A DNA stretch of 32,963 nucleotides, from the IMG/VR virus record IMGVR_UViG_3300014838_000049, positions 1-32,963 of that record; one strand, written 5' to 3'. This stretch comes from a virus. The position numbers were made by a program, and so were the translations under genes. The notes beneath the pieces are model-generated. The model was not told where the DNA came from. It was given only the letters and a program-made list of their open reading frames with translations, and made no database searches. Within the stretch, counting starts at the first letter, position 1. Each line of letters opens with the position of its first letter. Below are positions 4,872-19,617 of this stretch, piece by piece.

Positions 4872-5346
4872 GCGTGGCCTCCGCTTCGTTTTCCTGCTGC
4901 ATCTGCATGTGGAGCTGGCCCAGCAGTTCCAGGCCGGCCTGGTGTCCGGCGGCGGCGCGGACGACGGCCACCTCCGCGCGCACCTGGTCGAAGACTTCTT
5001 TCACCCACGCGGCGCGATCGGCCTCGGTGAGGATGAGGTAATAACCGCCCTCGGTGCCATGTTTGCTGCTGCCGATGGGTAGGCGGAAGCTGATGCGCAG
5101 CGTGCGAATGATGCCCTTGATCGAGCGCACATCGAGCTTCGACTGCTGCTGGATTTCGCGAATATTGATAGCGGCGTCCAGGCCGCGGTGGTAGCGGATG
5201 GCGCGCAGCACCGCCTTTTCGCCCTCGTCGAGCGAGAGTGCGAGCGGGCCTCCAGGATGCCCCATTAAGAGCGCCAAGATTTGACTGTCGAGTCGCTCGA
5301 CAAACTCGGCCTGCGACTCGGGAAAGAGCGATGCTTGTGCGGTCAA
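4861..5346 (-). CDS. winged-helix DNA-binding protein
   Basis: 161 residues from a TTG at 5346 that overlaps the upstream stop (TTGA), with GGAGGG upstream. Residues about 40-105 (EKAVLRAIRYHRG ... INIREIQQQSKLDVRSIKGIIRTLR ... GYYLI) form a winged helix with a clear recognition helix and wing, followed by a long amphipathic helix and a Gln/Met-rich tail (QLHMQMQQENEAE). This pattern recurs in phage early regions as replication- or transcription-associated proteins. The exact role is not evident. Confidence 0.65.
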   Translation of the reverse strand: MTAQASLFPESQAEFVERLDSQILALLMGHPGGPLALSLDEGEKAVLRAIRYHRGLDAAINIREIQQQSKLDVRSIKGIIRTLRISFRLPIGSSKHGTEGGYYLILTEADRAAWVKEVFDQVRAEVAVVRAAAGHQAGLELLGQLHMQMQQENEAEATHAG

Positions 5347-5660
5347 TGGATCAGCCCTCCTTTCTTACACCCCGTCGACGTGTGCCTGTCGCCGGGGACC
5401 CCGTGTTTGTCGTGCTGCGCGGCGATGCCCTGCAACGCCAGTTGCGCCCTGTACTGAATCTGAATCAAGTTGCCCGCCTCCAGCAGCGCATGCTCCACGA
5501 TGTCCATGTGCTCGGCCAGCAGATAGCTCGCTTCGACGCTGGTGCCGGGCATGTTGTAGCGCAACGCGTCGCGCATCCGCGTGGCGGCTGCGGCCGAGGC
5601 CAGCAGGCGGTTGATGCCCACAGTGAGCAGCGCGTCGATCTTGGCTTGTTCTTCGGTCAT
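5343..5660 (-). CDS. hypothetical protein with a repeat-derived C-terminus
   Basis: 105 residues; the ATG overlaps the upstream stop as ATGA. Residues 1-82 are helical (EASYLLAEHMDIVEHALLEAG). The C-terminal 20 (GVPGDRHTSTGCKKG) are encoded by a palindromic DNA repeat that also forms the end of the neighbouring gene, so this tail was probably added by insertion of the repeat near the original stop. The downstream start (TTG) uses a GGAGGG encoded in this tail. Core function unknown. Confidence 0.6.
   Translation of the reverse strand: MTEEQAKIDALLTVGINRLLASAAAATRMRDALRYNMPGTSVEASYLLAEHMDIVEHALLEAGNLIQIQYRAQLALQGIAAQHDKHGVPGDRHTSTGCKKGGLIH
5362..5404. repeat. REP-like palindromic element, copy 1
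   Basis: 43 bases, identical to 5670-5712 at 41 positions. It contains CCCCGTCGAC (5370-5379), an 8-base loop, and GTCGCCGGGG (5388-5397), arms that pair at 9 of 10 positions. The two differences from the other copy are in the loop, as expected if stem pairing is maintained. It lies within the 3' coding end of the 5343-5660 gene. Confidence 0.7.
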
Positions 5661-5998
5661 TGCTTGCCCTTCTTACACCCCGTCGACGTGGACCTGTCGC
5701 CGGGGACCCCGTTTTTCTTAAGCAGCTCGGCCGTCTTGATGTCGCGGCCCACATGCCACCCGTTGCCATGCGGACACTCGTAAGGCTTCAGCGTCGATTC
5801 GTTGCGCCGCGTTGCGTGCGGCCTGGCCAGCAGCAGCCCGATGTAGCTATGCGCATCCGCTTCGCTGCGCAGCCCGATCTTGTTGCAGCGTCCGCACCAG
5901 GCCGAGTTCAGCAGCCGCCGGCGCGCCTCAGGCTCGCTGTCCCAGGTGATGGTCTCGGCGATCCGGCGCGGCACGTTCTCTTCAGCGGGCAGCTTCAC
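5657..5998 (-). CDS. zinc-ribbon-like small phage protein with a repeat-derived C-terminus
   Basis: 113 residues. CGRCNKIGLRSEADAHSYIG and, later, YECPHGNGWHVGRD form the CxxC ... CxH...WHVG pattern seen in a common family of small zinc-ribbon proteins from phages and mobile elements (residues about 35-88). The last 20 residues derive from the second palindromic repeat. The AAGAAGGGC in that tail lies just ahead of the next gene's ATG. It overlaps the upstream gene by 17 bp. Probable nucleic-acid-binding accessory protein. Confidence 0.65.
   Translation of the reverse strand: MKLPAEENVPRRIAETITWDSEPEARRRLLNSAWCGRCNKIGLRSEADAHSYIGLLLARPHATRRNESTLKPYECPHGNGWHVGRDIKTAELLKKNGVPGDRSTSTGCKKGKQ
5670..5712. 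repeat. REP-like palindromic element, copy 2
   Basis: The second copy, 308 bp from the first and in the same orientation, with arms CCCCGTCGAC and GTCGCCGGGG around loop GTGGACCT. It encodes the C-terminus GVPGDRSTSTGCKKG of the 5657-5998 gene. Its placement at the same position relative to a stop codon in two unrelated genes argues for insertion rather than gene duplication. Confidence 0.7.
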
Positions 5999-6798: not shown

Positions 6799-7649
6799 AG
6801 CAGGCCTCCGGCATTCTCCTCGCGCCCGAATGCACGATTGAGCCGCTCGGCCTTAGCCTTCCACTCCTCGGCCGTTTCGCCAGCGGTGCCGCGAACCGGA
6901 ATGCTTTGGTGCTCCGGCTCGATGTAGGTGTGGTTGTTCTCGCCGCGATACATCTTCAGTGCGAAGCCGGCGAAGCAATCGCCCTTCATGTCCACGTCGA
7001 GCGATTCCCACCACTCGTCCAGCTCGTCTTCGTCGAGGCAGATCACCGTGGTCGCGGGTTCCTCGGGCTCATGATGCCGGCAGCAGGGGGCGACGATGGG
7101 CTCGGTGGGAATGCGCTCCGTGAAGACGGCCTGCGCTTCCTGCCCGATCAGCCGTGCGCGGCCCTTGGTGGTGATGCTCCATTGACAAAAGCGGTCAGGC
7201 TGAGTCACGCGCAGGACGAGCCCCTGAGCGAGGAGCGATTCGAGCGCGGAATACACTTGCTCGACCGTGAGCTTATAGATTTCCCGGGGATCGGCGATCT
7301 CCATCAACGTCGCGCCCGTCATCGCGACCTCGCACTTCGACAGCGCATCTAAGATGAGGGCTTCCCGAAACGCGAATTGTTGTGGTGTCGTTTCCGGCCG
7401 CCTGTGCGCGAGGATACGGGCGCGGCCGGATTCTGTCGCTTGAAAGCGAATCTCGGGGTGACCATAGATGCGCACCGCGTAGCCTCTGCTGATCAGATCG
7501 GAGAGCGTTCGACCCACAGCGTCCCGATCCATCGCCGCGCCTACGTGCACCGAGGTAAGGTCCTGCAACGCCTGCACAGTGAGGGGCTGCGCCGCGCCGC
7601 AGAGTCCATCGAGCACGACGGCTTCATGAAGAGTGAGCAGGGGCTTCAT
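6795..7649 (-). CDS. protein with two tandem winged-helix domains
   Basis: 284 residues. Residues about 1-82 (HEAVVLDGLCG ... VGRTLSDLISRGYAVRIYG ... FQATESGRARI) and about 90-170 (REALILDALSK ... VYSALESLLAQGLVLRV ... WSITTKGRARLIG) are two copies of the same fold, each ending in a GRAR segment. An acidic C-terminal region follows (EDELDEWWESLDVDMKG). The duplication suggests a DNA-binding regulator that contacts two half-sites. It starts by ATGA overlap, its ribosome-binding site encoded in the previous gene's KKGGK tail. Confidence 0.65.
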   Translation of the reverse strand: MKPLLTLHEAVVLDGLCGAAQPLTVQALQDLTSVHVGAAMDRDAVGRTLSDLISRGYAVRIYGHPEIRFQATESGRARILAHRRPETTPQQFAFREALILDALSKCEVAMTGATLMEIADPREIYKLTVEQVYSALESLLAQGLVLRVTQPDRFCQWSITTKGRARLIGQEAQAVFTERIPTEPIVAPCCRHHEPEEPATTVICLDEDELDEWWESLDVDMKGDCFAGFALKMYRGENNHTYIEPEHQSIPVRGTAGETAEEWKAKAERLNRAFGREENAGGLL

Positions 7650-8200
7650 TGTTTGCCGCCTTTCTTGGCAGACTTCTTGGCAGACTTCTTGGCGGCGCGT
7701 TCGGCGCCCAGGCGTTCTTTCTCCTGCAACGCGCTGGCCAGGCTCACGCTCAGGCTGGGGGCCTTGGAGTTCACAGCAAAGCAGCGGGCGAAGATACCCA
7801 GAACGTGCGTCTGGATCTCGTCGGCCATGCCGCCGATCTTCAGCCGCAGGGTGTCGCCGGCGTCCTTGCGGAGCTGGTGCTTGACCTTGCGGTCAAAGAG
7901 TGTGGCGAAGAGGCTCGGCTTCTTCATGCGCGAAAGTTCACTACGCAGCTCGCCCACCGCGGCTTCGTCGATGTCCACCGTCGAACCAACGGTCGAGTCG
8001 GCGACGTAGAGCACGCCTTCCAGGCGCGTGGTCTTGTCGGCGCGCGGCGCGATGTGGCCCTGGGCCTGGACCGCGGCCAGCAGGTCGCCCTTGGCGGCGG
8101 AGTGGACGCGCTGCGCTTCCTCCAGGTGAATGCAGGCGTTGTCAAACTCAATGCAGAGATCGTCGATCTGCTCTGCGGTGTAGGTCTTTCCGTTGGTCAT
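7646..8200 (-). CDS. hypothetical early protein with Lys-rich repeat tail
   Basis: 184 residues from the ATG at 8200 (AAAGG upstream); the upstream open frame to 8251 would run into the preceding gene. The N-terminal half is a long helix (AEQIDDLCIEFDNACIHLEE and onwards), the middle is mixed, and the C-terminus repeats AKKS three times (AAKKSAKKSAKKGGK), encoded by tandem near-identical 12-mers at about 7665-7697. The tail may bind nucleic acid non-specifically. I do not recognise the family. Confidence 0.6.
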   Translation of the reverse strand: MTNGKTYTAEQIDDLCIEFDNACIHLEEAQRVHSAAKGDLLAAVQAQGHIAPRADKTTRLEGVLYVADSTVGSTVDIDEAAVGELRSELSRMKKPSLFATLFDRKVKHQLRKDAGDTLRLKIGGMADEIQTHVLGIFARCFAVNSKAPSLSVSLASALQEKERLGAERAAKKSAKKSAKKGGKQ

Positions 8201-8226
8201 TTGGACTGCCTTTCGAGTTGAGAAAC

Positions 8227-8451
8227 TTAAATCCATGGGGTTTCGAGCCATTGCGAAAAGCGCTTATGGGCGCACGCATGGCCGCAGATGTCTTCGTATT
8301 TCGCTTGCGGGTTGCGAGGGTCGTCGACAGCGTCGGCCGGGATGAACATGATGCCGGCGCGGTGCGGAACCGTGATCGCCACGATCCAGTGGTTGGTCTC
8401 GCCTTTCGCCGCGCCGCAAACGTCGCACACGATGTGGTTGGGAACTTCCAT
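8227..8451 (-). CDS. small Cys-rich phage protein
   Basis: 74 residues from the ATG at 8451, in TGATG overlap with the previous stop; the longer open frame to 8616 is out of step with that operon pattern. CDVCG (residues 9-13) and CGHACAHK near residue 55 could form one zinc site around a beta-rich middle (HWIVAITVPHRAGIMFIP). It is followed by a 26-bp gap, one of the few in this operon. Function unknown. Confidence 0.6.
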   Translation of the reverse strand: MEVPNHIVCDVCGAAKGETNHWIVAITVPHRAGIMFIPADAVDDPRNPQAKYEDICGHACAHKRFSQWLETPWI

Positions 8452-8645
8452 CACTTGCCGCCTTTCCGGCAGGCAGGGCAAATATCCGCGTGGCCGCGTG
8501 GCACGTCGGTTCGATAGCTCACCCAGCCGAGGCGCTTTGTTAAATCGCGGCGTAGCTCGGTCTCGGACATCTCGTTCACGTCGGTCAGCTCGCACGCTAC
8601 TCTGCAGTCGTCGCAAATAATTCGGATCGTGCGCTCAGTGCTCAT
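8451..8645 (-). CDS. small CxxC/CxxC zinc-ribbon-like protein
   Basis: 64 residues from the ATG at 8645 (TGATG overlap, AAAGGCGG upstream inside the previous gene). CDDC near residue 11 and CPAC near residue 57 flank a helix and a beta segment (ELRRDLTKRLGWVSYRTD), typical of a compact zinc ribbon. Its C-terminal RKGGK again encodes the next gene's ribosome-binding site. Role unknown. Confidence 0.6.
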   Translation of the reverse strand: MSTERTIRIICDDCRVACELTDVNEMSETELRRDLTKRLGWVSYRTDVPRGHADICPACRKGGK

Positions 8646-8836
8646 CACTCGCCGCCTTTCTTCGCGGCTCTGCGATAGGCGCTGCGTTGCTTGCGCCACT
8701 GACGCGCGCTGATGTTCTTGTCGCGCTTTGGGTCCCGGCGCATGATCACGCCGGTGGCGCGGTCGATGACGTGGCTCGACCGATCGTCCTGCGCATCCTG
8801 AGATTCGTTGAAATGCCGATGGCCTCTGTTCTCCAT
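8645..8836 (-). CDS. small basic early protein
   Basis: 63 residues from the ATG at 8836, overlapping the upstream stop (TGATG). The upstream continuation of this frame (to 9232) is a shadow of two other genes and is rejected. The composition is highly charged, with Arg/Lys concentrated in the second half (RRDPKRDKNISARQWRKQRS). Possibly a nucleic-acid binder; family unknown. Confidence 0.5.
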   Translation of the reverse strand: MENRGHRHFNESQDAQDDRSSHVIDRATGVIMRRDPKRDKNISARQWRKQRSAYRRAAKKGGE

Positions 8837-9123
8837 CACCGCCCGCCCTTCACCGCGTCGAGAATCATCTGCACGCGGCCGGAGAAAACGGCATACAAAA
8901 TCTGGTACCCGATGTAGAGCACGCCGCACCCGGCAGCGGCTACCGCGATCACGAAGAGGTTGCGCGCCGCGTGGTACAGGCGCACGGTGATATCGACGTG
9001 GCTGCCGCGGACGGTCTGCGTAATCCGGCCGCGCGAGGCGTTCCAGCGCTGCACTTCCGGCGCGGAAAAGCTGGTTATGGGTTGATCGACTCCACGGCGA
9101 AGCGGTGCGAATGTGGGACTCAT
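8836..9123 (-). CDS. single-pass membrane protein next to the transposition ATPase gene
   Basis: 95 residues. The start is an ATGA overlap with the end of the ATPase gene, whose last codons supply AAGGAGG. Residues about 52-82 (ARNLFVIAVAAAGCGVLYIGYQILYAVF) form one long hydrophobic segment, probably a transmembrane helix, with a basic N-terminal side likely facing the cytoplasm. Function unknown; a role in membrane attachment or exclusion is speculation. Confidence 0.6.
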   Translation of the reverse strand: MSPTFAPLRRGVDQPITSFSAPEVQRWNASRGRITQTVRGSHVDITVRLYHAARNLFVIAVAAAGCGVLYIGYQILYAVFSGRVQMILDAVKGGR

Positions 9124-10133
9124 GCAACCTCCTTAGCGATTGCGACTGCGGGTGTGGCCGCCGCCTTGAACTGGTCGAGAGCGTTGGTGAGCGTGCGGAC
9201 GTTGATGTAGGTGCGATTGCCTTCAAAGGCATCGCGGACGGTGGCGCCCTTGATCAGGTCGTCGATGTACTTCTGGGCTTCGCGCGGGGTGCAGCGCTGG
9301 CTGAGCAGCTCGCCGATCTCGCGCTCGATGATGCCGCAGGCCTCGGCGCGTTCCAGGCCCGGCAGGCGAACCTTGGCGATGATGCGCGAGTTCCACTGCT
9401 CCAGCGTGGCGCTGAACTCGTCGAACTTTCGTTTCAGATCGTGCGACCCGGCAAACAGCAGCGAGAAGTAGGGCGGCTGGTCGAGCAGCTCGCGCAAGGT
9501 CTCAAAACAATCCAAACTCAGGTGCTGGGCTTCGTCCACCACCAGCAGCACGCGGTGATGGCGGAAATCAAAGCGGAGATTGGCCAGCATGGGATCGAGA
9601 TCGTTCGAGGTGCGGCAGCCGCAGGCCAGCATCACGCGGCGCATCAGGTCGCGGGGCCGGATGCCGGCACGGGCGTAAATGTAAAAGCTGCGGCGGCCTT
9701 CGGCGTTGGCCACTTCGCGGGCATTCAGCTCCGCCACCTGGTGCTCCAGGACAAACGACTTCTGGCTTCCCGGCGGCGCATAGATCATGTAGGCCACAGG
9801 CCGCGGCAGCAGCTTTTCAAACGTGTCCTGGATGGCGCGCACGTTGGCGGTCTCATACAGCTCGCCCACCAGGCGGGTCGCCTGCCCCACCGGATGCGCG
9901 TCCATGAACCGGCTGACTTTCTCCACCAGGTGGACGGCGGTACCGGCGACGTTCTGGTAGTTGCCGTTCAAGAAGAGGCGCAGGCTCGATTCGCCATAGC
10001 CCACGCGGCGCGCGAAGTCTGGCACGGAGAGGCCGGTGCGCGCAAGATAGTCCTGCACCCGGAGCACGCATGCGGAGTTGCCCGCTTCTTCGTTGGCCAG
10101 CCGGGCTTTATTCAGTACGGTGTCCTGCTTCAC
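9120..10133 (-). CDS. B: AAA+ ATPase, MuB/TnsC-type target-selection protein
   Basis: 337 residues from a GTG at 10133 (GGAGG upstream, GTGA overlap with the transposase stop). An N-terminal HTH at about 35-60 (SVPDFARRVGYGESSLRLFL) matches MuB layout. Walker A is APPGSQKS (119-126), Walker B VLLVVDEAQH (195-204), and a sensor-like segment LLFAGSHDL follows. MuB-type ATPases form filaments on DNA, pick the transposition target, stimulate the transposase and give immunity to self-insertion. The position directly after the transposase gene supports the call. Confidence 0.9.
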   Translation of the reverse strand: MKQDTVLNKARLANEEAGNSACVLRVQDYLARTGLSVPDFARRVGYGESSLRLFLNGNYQNVAGTAVHLVEKVSRFMDAHPVGQATRLVGELYETANVRAIQDTFEKLLPRPVAYMIYAPPGSQKSFVLEHQVAELNAREVANAEGRRSFYIYARAGIRPRDLMRRVMLACGCRTSNDLDPMLANLRFDFRHHRVLLVVDEAQHLSLDCFETLRELLDQPPYFSLLFAGSHDLKRKFDEFSATLEQWNSRIIAKVRLPGLERAEACGIIEREIGELLSQRCTPREAQKYIDDLIKGATVRDAFEGNRTYINVRTLTNALDQFKAAATPAVAIAKEVA

Positions 10134-12205
10134 TTCAACGCCTCCAATAGGTTGTTGGCCAGATCGGCCGCGCTGGGCGGAGCCACGGCTTCTTTGTCCG
10201 GGCGCAGCCGCGGCTTGCGCTGGGTGATGACGGCGCCGGTGGCGGCGGGGAGCTGCAGGCGGCCGTAGAGCATCTCCTCGGCCGACTTGGCCCCGAGACT
10301 GCGCGCGCCCGCTGCGATGGTCTTCAGCGCGCCCTTGTAGGCTTTCTCCATGCCGCGGCGCGTCTCCATGGACTGGCCGATCTGCGCCTGCGTCGCCGAA
10401 TCGTTGGGCGCGAAGCGCAGCAGCGGCTCCGCCTCCAGCCAGGCCAGGAAGCGGCCGTCGAGCGTGAGCGCAACCACGAACTCCGGGTCCTCGGGGTTGT
10501 AGCCGATCAGGATTTCGGTTTCATTGGCCTCGTGCATCGCCGCCCACGCCAGGCGATCTTCAGGCCGCGGCGTGTAGCGGTAGTGATTCAACTGCACCGC
10601 GCACTCGCGCACCCCGCGCTTGGCGTATTCACTCAGCAGCAGCGCCAGCGTTTCAGGATTCGGCACCGGCTTCTGATTGGGATTCATCTCCGACGCGAAC
10701 ACTTCGTCCGGGCTGCGGCCGTCCATTCCTTCGCCCGATTGCGGCGTGGCATTGTATTCGCGGATCCACGAAAGGCAGCCCAAGATGAAGCGGCTGGCGG
10801 TGGGATGATTCGACTCCGCCACGCGCCCGGCTTTGAGCAGGCGGCGGTGGCGCATCATGGCGGCTTCAGTAGCCTCTGGACGCGTAAACGGCGAGCCCGA
10901 CGTGTAGGTCGAATGCACCGCGTCAAAGCGCTCGTGCATGGTGCGGAAGAAACGCTCGACGTGTTTCGATTGCGGATGGCGGGGAATGCAATGCGTAACG
11001 GCGATTCCAAGGCGCGCCAGCAGGCCGGTGCGCTCGATGCGCTTGTATTCGTCCTCGTACCAGCCCTGCGGGGCCTTCAGATCGTCGTCGCCTGGAACCT
11101 CTGATCCGTGCAGCGCGCCCTTAGCGACCTTCCGGTAATCTTTCCCGTTATCAACATAGATATGTTCGGGCGGCCCCACTTCGAGCATGGCGCGCAGCAT
11201 AGTGGCGGCGATGGAGCGCGAGCTGCCTTCCCATGCCCAGGTTCCCCACGCCTTGCGGCTGCGGTAATCCACAAAAGCCGAAATGCGCAGGCGTCCGGGC
11301 GTGCCAAAAGGAACTTCCTCAAAGAGATCGTTCGAAATCTCCGCGTCGTGGATCGCGTGATCGCCCACCCAGACCTGGTTCGAGAAGACATCGACGTAGC
11401 CGCGCCTGATGTAGGGAGACATGCGCTCGCGGTAGGCGCGCTGGCCTTCGCGGGCCAGCACCCGCATGGCCGGCGAAATGTTCTGCGAAAGAAACAGGCG
11501 GACCGTTTCGCGGCTGGGCAGATCGTCGGCTGAAATGCTCAGCATCTGCAGCTCGTACTCGATCTGCTCGCAGACGAACGTGACACTCATGCGCTCGACC
11601 AGGTAGAGGTAGGCGGCGAAGAGAGCGGCCTCGCGATGGCGATTGAACCAGCGGCTCTGGCCCTTGTCGGCGCGGATGCGGTCGGCGAGCGCGGTGAACC
11701 CGCTGGAGCGATACGCTGCCAGCCAGCGCTTGATGGTGCGCGGCGACTGCTGCTGCTGCAGGGCGATGTAGTCAATCAGCCGCGCCATGCTGGTGACCCG
11801 ATGGCCGTTGATCTGCAGCGCTAAATACCGGTCGGGATTGTCGTGGAAATCAAGGAGGGGTTCGAGGACGGCGAGACGTTTCTCCGCCTCCGCCTGGGAT
11901 TTCGGGTCCGGAAGCACGATGCGCTCCAGCGACGGCGGCTGGTTGGCGAAGAGCGGACCAAGCTGTGTAGCAGCGGGCACGACGGCGAGCTGCGTCGGCG
12001 CGGGCTTCTGCGGCAGGCTGGCGGCCAGGTATTCGCGCTGCGGGCGACCATTGGGGAGAAGTTGCTGTGAATCTCGCGACAAGAATTCGTGGCAGCGGTA
12101 AAAGAATTTCCGGCGCGACCAGCCAGTGACGGCGATCGCTTCGTCGAGCGAAAGCCACTGCTCGATGCTACGGGGGACCAGGGCTAGCGAAGGTAGGGGG
12201 GTCAT
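10130..12205 (-). CDS. A: DDE transposase, MuA-type
   Basis: 691 residues. N-terminal helical DNA-binding segments include an HTH at about 18-36 and a region of HTH pattern at about 137-172 (TSMARLIDYIALQ ... SPRTIKRWLAAY). The RNase-H-like catalytic core (about 268-425) supplies Asp282 (VWVGDH), Asp352 (IYVDNGKDY) and Glu417 (HPQSKHVERFF). A beta-barrel-like domain follows (about 530-600) and a basic helical tail that in MuA contacts the ATPase. It joins and cuts the prophage ends for integration and replicative transposition. The overall look is closer to the Tn552/BcepMu branch than to MuA itself, an impression not tested by alignment. Confidence 0.92.
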   Translation of the reverse strand: MTPLPSLALVPRSIEQWLSLDEAIAVTGWSRRKFFYRCHEFLSRDSQQLLPNGRPQREYLAASLPQKPAPTQLAVVPAATQLGPLFANQPPSLERIVLPDPKSQAEAEKRLAVLEPLLDFHDNPDRYLALQINGHRVTSMARLIDYIALQQQQSPRTIKRWLAAYRSSGFTALADRIRADKGQSRWFNRHREAALFAAYLYLVERMSVTFVCEQIEYELQMLSISADDLPSRETVRLFLSQNISPAMRVLAREGQRAYRERMSPYIRRGYVDVFSNQVWVGDHAIHDAEISNDLFEEVPFGTPGRLRISAFVDYRSRKAWGTWAWEGSSRSIAATMLRAMLEVGPPEHIYVDNGKDYRKVAKGALHGSEVPGDDDLKAPQGWYEDEYKRIERTGLLARLGIAVTHCIPRHPQSKHVERFFRTMHERFDAVHSTYTSGSPFTRPEATEAAMMRHRRLLKAGRVAESNHPTASRFILGCLSWIREYNATPQSGEGMDGRSPDEVFASEMNPNQKPVPNPETLALLLSEYAKRGVRECAVQLNHYRYTPRPEDRLAWAAMHEANETEILIGYNPEDPEFVVALTLDGRFLAWLEAEPLLRFAPNDSATQAQIGQSMETRRGMEKAYKGALKTIAAGARSLGAKSAEEMLYGRLQLPAATGAVITQRKPRLRPDKEAVAPPSAADLANNLLEALK

Positions 12206-12582
12206 TCCTGCGCGCCCTTCTTGGCAGCAAGTTCGGCGTTCCTGTCAGCACGGCGAAATGCGGCGTTGGCGCGATTTCTGCAACGTTTTGCTTCGTCCTC
12301 CCAACGCCAACGCTCGTGCATTTCCTCGTCGAGTCTCTTCGAGGCCTCCTGGAGCGGTGTTGTAATCGCGAGATAACCGATGCAGGTGCCTTCGATTTCC
12401 TCCCCGGGGGGAAGGATGCTTTTGTCGTTGAGATCGGGAATATCAAACTCACATCCCCCGGCCTCAATAAAGAGAGCCATTTGGAAGGCCTCTTCGTACT
12501 TGTGCTTAGCAACTTGCATCTCGGCGAATGCCGCTTCGACGAGGTCCCAGTTGGGCCGGTAATTCTCTCTGGGCCCGTTCAT
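12202..12582 (-). CDS. hypothetical early protein upstream of the transposase
   Basis: 126 residues, mostly helical, with an acidic middle (CEFDIPDLNDKSILPPGEE) and a basic C-terminal helix (RCRNRANAAFRRADRN) ending ELAAKKGAQE. The tail codons AAG AAG GGC sit just before the transposase ATG and probably act as its ribosome-binding site. Start ATG overlaps the upstream stop (ATGA). Not recognised; the gene's place between regulators and transposase is that of small Mu early genes. Confidence 0.6.
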   Translation of the reverse strand: MNGPRENYRPNWDLVEAAFAEMQVAKHKYEEAFQMALFIEAGGCEFDIPDLNDKSILPPGEEIEGTCIGYLAITTPLQEASKRLDEEMHERWRWEDEAKRCRNRANAAFRRADRNAELAAKKGAQE

Positions 12583-13214
12583 AGTTGCGCGGCCTTCTTG
12601 GCTGCCAGTTCGGCATCTACGCGGGCCATCTCGGAGCGAAGGGCCTTCAGCACGCGCGCCGACGGGAAATCTCCGAGCCGGATGTGTGAAACATGGCCCA
12701 CCGAAACATTGAGCTTCTTAGCAACAATTTCGAGGAGTCCGCAATACCTTCCGCCCCAGCAGAACTGCGAATTTTCTTCAGCGGTCAAGGGAGGCGTTTC
12801 AACGCGCTGGATTAAATCGATGCGCCGCCTCTCAGCCACAAGCTCTTGCATGATCAGCTCGGAGGTGACCCTCCCAGTGGCCACCTTGTATACGCCCGTC
12901 CGATGGATGCCAAGGGAATGCCCCACCCGAGTGAGAAGCCCGAAATATTTGGCACCTTTCCTAATGTCAAGTGAGCTTAGATCGGCCAAGGGTCCCACAT
13001 AATGGGGGATTGTTACGGGAGCATTGGCGGCCGGAGAAACGTCCTCCGGCTGATTGGGAATGTCCCCGGCCTGAACTGCGGCAGGGGGATCAATCTCCGC
13101 GTCTTCGAGCGCAAGTGCCTCGATTTGCTGGAGGAGAATTTCAGCTTTACGTTGCCACCGCCGTGCGTGATAGACGGCGTCTCCGTATTTCCAAGCCAGC
13201 GACTTTTCGTTCAT
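12579..13214 (-). CDS. protein with two tandem HTH-like repeats
   Basis: 211 residues. An N-terminal helix and Pro/Ala linker (1-80) precede two related modules: YFGLLTRVGHSLGIHRTGV with its continuation to RRRID (about 90-135), and YCGLLEIVAKKLNVSVGHV with its continuation to MARVD (about 155-200). Both share GLL-x-x-V-(x)4-L-x-(I/V) then a recognition helix and a terminal E-(x)-R-(I/V)-D. A third copy is in the 13211-13453 gene. The likely role is binding of repeated operator or end sites; target unknown. Confidence 0.65.
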   Translation of the reverse strand: MNEKSLAWKYGDAVYHARRWQRKAEILLQQIEALALEDAEIDPPAAVQAGDIPNQPEDVSPAANAPVTIPHYVGPLADLSSLDIRKGAKYFGLLTRVGHSLGIHRTGVYKVATGRVTSELIMQELVAERRRIDLIQRVETPPLTAEENSQFCWGGRYCGLLEIVAKKLNVSVGHVSHIRLGDFPSARVLKALRSEMARVDAELAAKKAAQL

Positions 13215-18870: not shown

Positions 18871-19617
18871 ATGACCAAGCCCAGACCAAAAACCGGCGAG
18901 CCGCGGCAAGTACATCAGCCGCTCAAGATCGATTTATTGCCGCAGTCGGCGCGGGATGCGATCGAGCAGCTCTACGACCGCTCGCGGACCTGGAAGGAGA
19001 TCGAGGAGCAATCGGCGCTGCCCTACAGCGCCAAGTGGGCGTCGGACGGCGGCGGCTTCATCGATTGGGAAGCGCTGGAACTGCGCGTGCTGGAGCAGTT
19101 CCCGGGGATGCGGCTGGCGAAGAGCACGCTGCAGCGCTGGTTCGATCTGCGCGTGGCCCAGGCGCGGAAGGAAGTGTTGCGCGAGAGCGCCCAGGCCCGG
19201 GAATTCGCCAAAGCCTTCGCCGGGAATGACCTCTTTAATTCAAACTCGGCCGTGATCAACGCCTTACGCGACCAGGTCTTCAATCTCATCCAGTCGGCCG
19301 GGATCGGCGACAAGGCGCTTTTCGCGAAGGGCCTGAAGGATCTGACCCTGGCCATGAGCCGCATGCAGCGCGTGGAGCTGCAGGCCAAGCGGGTTGATGT
19401 CGACCAGCGCAAAATTAAGATCCTGGAGGATCGCGAGAAGAAGGCGCGCGAGAATCTCGACCAGGCGACGCAGCAGGCGGCGAAGAAGGGCGGCGGCCAA
19501 TTCTCGATCGAAGATATCAATCTGCTGCGGGAGCGCACCTTCGGCTTGCCGCCGTTGGTCCACCCCACCGACAAGGACCCGTCGTTGGGGACCCCGGTGG
19601 TGATCGCTCATGATTGA
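18871..19617 (+). CDS. terminase small subunit, Mu gp27-type (DUF3486-like)
   Basis: 248 residues. The N-terminal region has LPQSARDAIEQLYDR and later STLQRWFDLR, the signature HTH of the DUF3486/Mu gp27 family; the C-terminal half is a long charged helix (QRVELQAKRVDVDQRKIKIL) that would mediate oligomerisation, and a tail with LRERTFGLPPL. It recognises DNA and recruits the large subunit for headful packaging. It overlaps the large-subunit gene by 8 bp. Confidence 0.8.
   Translation: MTKPRPKTGEPRQVHQPLKIDLLPQSARDAIEQLYDRSRTWKEIEEQSALPYSAKWASDGGGFIDWEALELRVLEQFPGMRLAKSTLQRWFDLRVAQARKEVLRESAQAREFAKAFAGNDLFNSNSAVINALRDQVFNLIQSAGIGDKALFAKGLKDLTLAMSRMQRVELQAKRVDVDQRKIKILEDREKKARENLDQATQQAAKKGGGQFSIEDINLLRERTFGLPPLVHPTDKDPSLGTPVVIAHD

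Follow-up and report, generated by a model that had tools for sequence, protein, structure and literature searches.

Terminal tails of two early genes of a Mu-like phage are very probably insertions of a small mobile palindrome of Acidobacteriota

Palindromes that lie in frame within protein-coding genes were discovered in Rickettsia. The Rickettsia palindromic elements (RPEs) are 105-146 bp long and their target duplication is marked as unknown (PMC2229807); RPE-4 and RPE-6 carry CGTC tags (PMC3733652). How protein-coding palindromes spread has been an open question since that discovery, as for the Rickettsia elements neither a mover nor a settled target duplication is known.

According to one description, a RAYT gene always has two inverted REPs at its sides, and members of the IS200/IS605 family generate no larger target duplications (PMC2817692). 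MITEs are 70-300 bp long, with terminal inverted repeats of 15-30 bp (PMC3733652). Acidobacteria are not among the phyla listed for intragenic REPs with GTAG or CGTC tags, and the acidobacterial transposases mentioned in the same study are one group among those bordered by long terminal inverted repeats and not by REPs (PMC3733652). No paper on an element like the one described below was found in the literature on acidobacterial palindromes; the Solibacter paper mentions short repeats in general terms only.

The tails of two adjacent early phage genes, here called A and B, very likely arose when a small, mobile but non-autonomous palindrome of Acidobacteriota inserted there.

Three copies of a hairpin in a phage genome

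The window, that is, the whole stretch of DNA that was analysed, is a virus record of 32,963 bases. Its gene content is that of a Mu-like phage. Mu-type transposition proteins A and B, a repressor, an endolysin, a terminase, a portal protein, a head protease and a major head protein were recognised, in agreement with a previous annotation made from the letters alone (the sequence-only reading), which had called the two tailed genes phage genes. The MuA and MuB genes by which a Mu-like (transposable) phage is recognised are both present. The genes considered here are:

10130-12205, minus strand: Mu-type transposase A (phrog_310, E 2e-72), with a homologue in Acidobacteriota prophages
9120-10133, minus strand: Mu-type transposition protein B (phrog_296, E 2.5e-21), whose homologue in the G409 prophage (see below) has a C-terminal element
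5657-5998, minus strand: gene A, 113-residue early phage protein carrying copy 1; its stop overlaps the start of gene B; weak PHROG matches only
5343-5660, minus strand: gene B, 105-residue early phage protein carrying copy 2
18871-19617, plus strand: terminase small subunit (phrog_426), with copy 3 near the C-terminus

The reference phages have no DNA match to the region, and their MuA identity is below 30% among the matches listed; the relatives of the window phage are therefore IMG/VR contigs and prophages.

Two near-identical palindromes had been reported at the 3' coding ends of two adjacent genes. Both are real. They lie a few codons upstream of the stops of genes A and B, are identical at 41 of 43 bases with both differences inside the 8-nt loop, and give the peptide GVPGDRSTSTGCKKG near the end of gene A and GVPGDRHTSTGCKKG near the end of gene B. 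The count of two was too low, as a third, diverged copy had been overlooked; it was detected by similarity and again with a covariance model. The copies and their flanking repeats are:

5675-5711, minus strand: 37-nt core of copy 1, in frame with gene A at its 3' end, encoding GVPGDRSTSTGC (56.5 bits, E 5e-13, covariance model)
5670-5674, minus strand: right-hand 5-bp direct repeat of copy 1, AAGAA, a putative target-site duplication, matching AAAAA at 5712-5716 at 4/5 positions
5712-5716, minus strand: left-hand 5-bp direct repeat of copy 1, AAAAA
5367-5403, minus strand: 37-nt core of copy 2, in frame with gene B at its 3' end, encoding GVPGDRHTSTGC (48.3 bits, E 1e-10)
5362-5366, minus strand: right-hand direct repeat of copy 2, AAGAA, matching AAACA at 5404-5408 at 3/5 positions
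5404-5408, minus strand: left-hand direct repeat of copy 2, AAACA
19560-19596, minus strand: copy 3, diverged, in the 3' end of the small-terminase gene and antisense to it, peptide HPTDKDPSLGTP (55.6 bits, E 9e-13)
19555-19559, minus strand: right-hand direct repeat of copy 3, ACCAA, matching ACCAC at 19597-19601 at 4/5 positions; ACCAA occurs once in the empty site of the relative L111
19597-19601, minus strand: left-hand direct repeat of copy 3, ACCAC

The element is a 37-nt hairpin, CGGGGTCCCCxGCGAC-N8-GTCGCxGGGGTGG, whose two ends, CGGGGTCCCC and GGGGTGG, are not identical. Its stem has 10 bp, and 96.3% of the cells are paired, which makes it a palindrome as that term is used for protein-coding palindromic elements. 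In copies 1 and 2 the stem is imperfect, a G standing opposite an A at one position. Pair 10/29 occurs as A-T 27 times, G-C 16, G-T 8, T-A 3 and C-G 2 times, thus including all four Watson-Crick types, and the covariation score of the stem was reached by none of 500 shuffles. As the forms of this pair show, selection acts on the hairpin itself as a nucleic acid. The consensus is open, with no stop, in all six frames.

The hairpin might be a functional RNA: a terminator, an mRNA stabiliser or a translational-coupling element, kept by the phage to regulate overlapping early genes. The element folds, and all three window copies lie just upstream of a stop that overlaps the next start codon. However, the window copies do not fold clearly better than shuffled sequences (z -0.4 to -1.2), and the element has no match among the curated RNA families of Rfam. 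The relatives of all three phage genes manage without it, and in the hosts it is found mid-gene in unrelated enzymes, on both strands. Paired RNA structures had been suggested for the two phage genes, and each transcript would carry a hairpin, but the dispersal of the insertions over unrelated housekeeping genes speaks against a common RNA role, which is very improbable.

Alternatively, the common tail could be a conserved protein motif, for instance one that marks proteins for degradation or localisation, with selection acting on the peptide. The two tails are indeed near-identical peptides, and the intragenic copies show a bias in frame use. Yet it is the DNA that is conserved: the copies use five or more frames, on both strands, yielding different peptides, while the paired bases covary. 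The peptide-tag reading was dropped in view of the several frames and both strands in use, and hardly any weight is given to it.

Lysine-rich tails (AKKGG, KKGAQE, KKAAQL) also end four other early genes of the window, at 7646-7669, 8642-8665, 12202-12225 and 12579-12602. These four gene ends form a 24-nt repeat family with 75-79% identity. The element may prefer such AAG-rich gene ends as targets.

Empty sites and the 5-bp duplication

In the relatives L111, L113, L114, L129, L130 and L132 the terminase small subunit ends in ...FGLPPL VIAHD without any insert. In the window the same terminus reads ...FGLPPL VHPTDKDPSLGTPV VIAHD, and in L003/L006 ...FGLPPL PHPGDKDPSPGTPV VIAHD. The gain over the empty relatives is exactly 42 nt, and the terminase gene provides the cleanest proof of insertion among the phage genes. 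The L109 homologue of gene B (85% amino-acid identity) ends QHDK GGLVH, against QHDK HGVPGDRHTSTGCKK GGLIH in the window; the net gain in the window is 45 nt, perhaps as the result of a lysine-codon indel. Gene A has homologues without the tail in L108 (63% amino-acid identity) and in an upstream ORF of L109, ending ..LLRKVKL and ..LLRKKQP. Tail-less homologues, with which comparison had been proposed, thus exist for both genes.

In bacterial genomes, in-frame copies are situated within aconitase, GatB, threonine dehydratase, 3-hydroxyacyl-CoA dehydrogenase (HADH), mannose-6-phosphate isomerase, PEP carboxylase, NadE and others. These genes were named by reading of their sequences, except for GatB, aconitase, threonine dehydratase and PEP carboxylase, for which solved structures served for comparison. 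When aligned with the solved homologues, each of the four shows a gap in the homologue at the position of the element; for threonine dehydratase and 1ve5 the gap is 14 residues. Orthologues were retrieved from 20 relatives with a chimeric protein query. HADH and NadE each have a net gain of 42 nt over empty relatives (seven in the case of NadE). GatB (L012, L183) gained 42 nt in G004 and 39 nt in G006, by independent insertions at two different sites in one loop. Over six comparisons of occupied with empty sites the gain is 42 nt in the four clean cases and 39 or 45 nt in the other two, so that 42 nt is the mode of the net gain and not a rule. In-frame insertion into conserved genes, missing from their homologues, is one of the properties by which protein-coding palindromic elements are recognised, and it is found here. 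The sequence-only reading had likewise seen mobile palindromes tolerated as protein extensions, which these empty sites and the dispersed copies described below bear out.

A codon-usage score trained on nine genes, which makes the assignment approximate, placed 30 of 75 copies within genes. The frames are used 15/8/3/3/1/0 times by these intragenic copies (chi-square p 7e-6), the bias being towards GVPGDRSSSxGW and HPGDEDLSxGTP and away from the arginine-rich frames.

Upon comparing the left flank of each copy with its own right flank at register 42, the identity over the whole tested stretch was found to be 0.50, against 0.377 in shuffled flanks (z 7.9; 0/5000 shuffles). The signal is confined to positions -6 to -2, and the neighbouring registers 41 and 45 give z values of 2.7 and 2.8. 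It is present both in the intragenic copies (z 4.8) and in the remaining ones (z 4.5). The unit therefore consists of 37 nt plus a 5-bp duplication, a target-site duplication as in DDE-mobilised MITEs. The 5-bp flanks agree at four or more of the five bases in 21/61 copies, where 2.4 are expected; in 40/61 they agree at three or fewer, the repeats being imperfect, and the duplication decayed, in most copies. In HADH it is intact, AAGGC-[37 nt]-AAGGC.

Direct repeats of this kind might instead be microhomologies, used when the palindrome was copied without a dedicated enzyme, when replication switches templates or breaks are repaired at short homologies, for example AAG/CCGG. Tandem arrays with a 42-nt period and the nested copies of L087 fit slippage, and the flanks share a weak common composition (AAGGC). 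Against such templated or illegitimate copying, the target is found once in empty and twice in filled sites with a net gain of 42 nt (HADH, NadE, terminase), and the sharp five-position signal appears over all copies together, the register-42 signal in coding and other copies separately. This explanation is unlikely, though it deserves more weight than either an RNA role or a peptide tag.

Dispersal in Acidobacteriota and in a related prophage

The impression that similar repeats are dispersed in Acidobacteriota was confirmed by a pattern scan of 84,980 species genomes: there were 11 matches, 11/11 in this phylum, and the loop was constantly 8 nt although 4-14 nt were permitted. A pattern scan of 2.9 million virus contigs gave four more contigs. 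Ten matching genomes hold 1-35 copies each at no more than 3 mismatches, in both orientations, some in tandem with a period of 42 nt. The genomes are mostly MAGs, and these copy counts are lower bounds, the searches having used patterns or capped lists of candidates. In none of the genomes where copies were counted did the reversed control pattern match, showing that the repeat is not due to chance. A covariance model built from 63 copies matched 56/120 genomes of the order at E<=1e-4 (the E-values are rough), one of them with 58 scored matches; only about the strongest third of the 56 are certain members, and the others may belong to sister families. Very strict patterns, which found the element in 4/297 genomes of the phylum and 14/150 of the family, understate the spread; the covariance model recovers more. 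The element is not phage-specific, being spread over the genomes of soil Acidobacteriota.

Some copies have more complex surroundings. Around position 1535 of L087 one element is nested within another. Six copies (L014, L074, L081, L083, L093, L097) have longer flanks in common, about TTTGTTTTTGCGGCTTC...GATCTAGGGTGGGA, and represent a larger composite repeat containing the hairpin; the flanks TCAAGTCGACGCGACCAACAG...GAGAGAGCGGCGACC, common to four copies in two genomes (L069, L073, L089, L094), represent another. The 134-kb IMG/VR contig L004, which may be bacterial chromosome instead of virus, has at least four copies within 3.5 kb. Next to the element at 1677-1711 of L009 the protein reads RSFDKLRAGSGAPTF, which looks like another, distinct repeat family of Acidobacteriota that lies in frame.

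The palindrome had been called REP-like, and a RAYT-type transposase had been suggested as a partner. In that case mobility would depend on an HUH (Y1) transposase acting on the hairpin in single-stranded form, the route proposed for REPs and REPINs. The element is a dispersed palindrome of REP size (20-40 nt) in many copies, its stem covaries, and all ten element-bearing genomes have PF01797 genes. However, none of the 20 PF01797 loci examined, out of 35 matches, has a copy of the element within roughly 1.5 kb to either side, or as far as the contig reaches. The element is flanked by 5-bp direct repeats, which point to a target-duplicating insertion, unlike the products of IS200/IS605-type enzymes. 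Neither GTAG nor CGTC tags are present at its ends, and a large share of the copies, the 30 of 75 given above, is intragenic, not extragenic. Because neither the end tag nor the RAYT association was found and the copies are not confined to extragenic DNA, the element is not classed as a REP, and its mobilisation by a RAYT is rather improbable.

A related prophage connects the phage with an Acidobacteriota host. Homologues of the window transposase occur in 16/250 genomes of one Acidobacteriota family. The best of them, with an identity of about 50% across 689 residues, comes from G409, whose genome includes a contig of 6.27 Mb; there it belongs to a Mu-like prophage whose MuA is about 50% and MuB 58% identical to those of the window phage. 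This prophage has copies of its own, one at the C-terminus of MuB (...AAKI GVPVDRSTSTGC EEEACA) and one at the C-terminus of the homologue of the window ORF 7646-8251 (...KKAKN GVPTDRSSSVGF QKGGAQ). The window MuB and ORF 7646-8251 are without the element. Since the prophage copies are at other gene ends than those of the window, elements have reached this group of phages more than once. When 398 genomes were surveyed, one of the prophage elements, at 1 mismatch, ranked with the sequences most similar to the window copies. The proposed link of the repeat between phage and Acidobacteriota host thus holds, and the outcome named in advance as contrary to the sequence-only reading, with no further host copies and the same tail in distant homologues, was not observed.

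Proposed mechanism and relation to known systems

The insertion of a small mobile palindrome could proceed as follows. A candidate enzyme would insert the hairpin by way of a 5-bp staggered cut, each insertion adding 37+5=42 nt. As 42 nt are 14 codons, the reading frame is kept. The element would be retained by genes able to bear the extra peptide, at surface loops or C-termini, hydrophilic frames surviving most often. The phage would have taken its copies from its host or from another phage, and terminal Lys codons (AAG/AAA) may have offered both a favoured target and a tolerant C-terminus. Most likely the element is selfish or neutral; there is no indication of a function for the phage.

It is conceivable, although we hold it only tentatively, that the 37-nt hairpin is itself an active transposable unit with a 5-bp duplication and a fixed 42-nt quantum, from a family that evolved to be frame-neutral and open in six frames, and that it spreads through coding DNA with Mu-like phages as carriers between Acidobacteriota. 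The mover would then possibly be a phage or host DDE transposase; Mu makes 5-bp duplications. If so, the hairpin would be among the smallest mobile elements that make a target duplication. Neither excision nor a new jump was observed, and these data do not demonstrate present-day movement. When half-sites of an autonomous partner were sought in three genomes, no pairs 0.7-3 kb apart were noticed in the match lists, just nested or long-loop copies.

With its numerous copies, nearby empty sites, sharp 5-bp duplication signal and a phage as vector, all in a free-living phylum, the element makes the insertion chemistry of its kind testable. The element also illustrates a route by which bacterial and phage proteins gain ready-made insertions of 14 residues. 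Segments common to unrelated Acidobacteriota proteins in databases (GVPGDRSSSPGWK, HPGDEDLSPGTP) call for caution, as they represent repeat DNA and not homology.

Among the known systems, REPs and REPINs with RAYT (GTAG family) resemble the element in being short dispersed hairpins with stem covariation and with tandem and grouped copies. The element differs in lacking the GTAG tag, in having no copy beside the PF01797 genes examined, in its target duplication and in being often intragenic. MITEs (Correia/NEMIS, RUP, ERIC) are likewise non-autonomous and palindromic, with target duplications and some in-frame gene fusions, whereas the element is 37 bp in total and no autonomous partner was seen in the three genomes searched. 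The intragenic GTAG/CGTC REPs (BMC Genomics 2013, 14:522, PMC3733652) lie, like the element, within ORFs, some of them at C-termini. The RPEs and the protein-coding palindromes of Wolbachia share with it the in-frame position in many unrelated conserved genes, the additional intergenic copies and the lack of a known mover. The RPEs (PMC2229807) and the intragenic REPs (PMC3733652) come closest to it in behaviour. In contrast to the RPEs, it is 37 nt long, has no CGTC end tag, is flanked by 5-bp direct repeats and occurs in Acidobacteriota and their phages. We class it as a new family of protein-coding palindromes, set apart from the RPEs by these descriptions.
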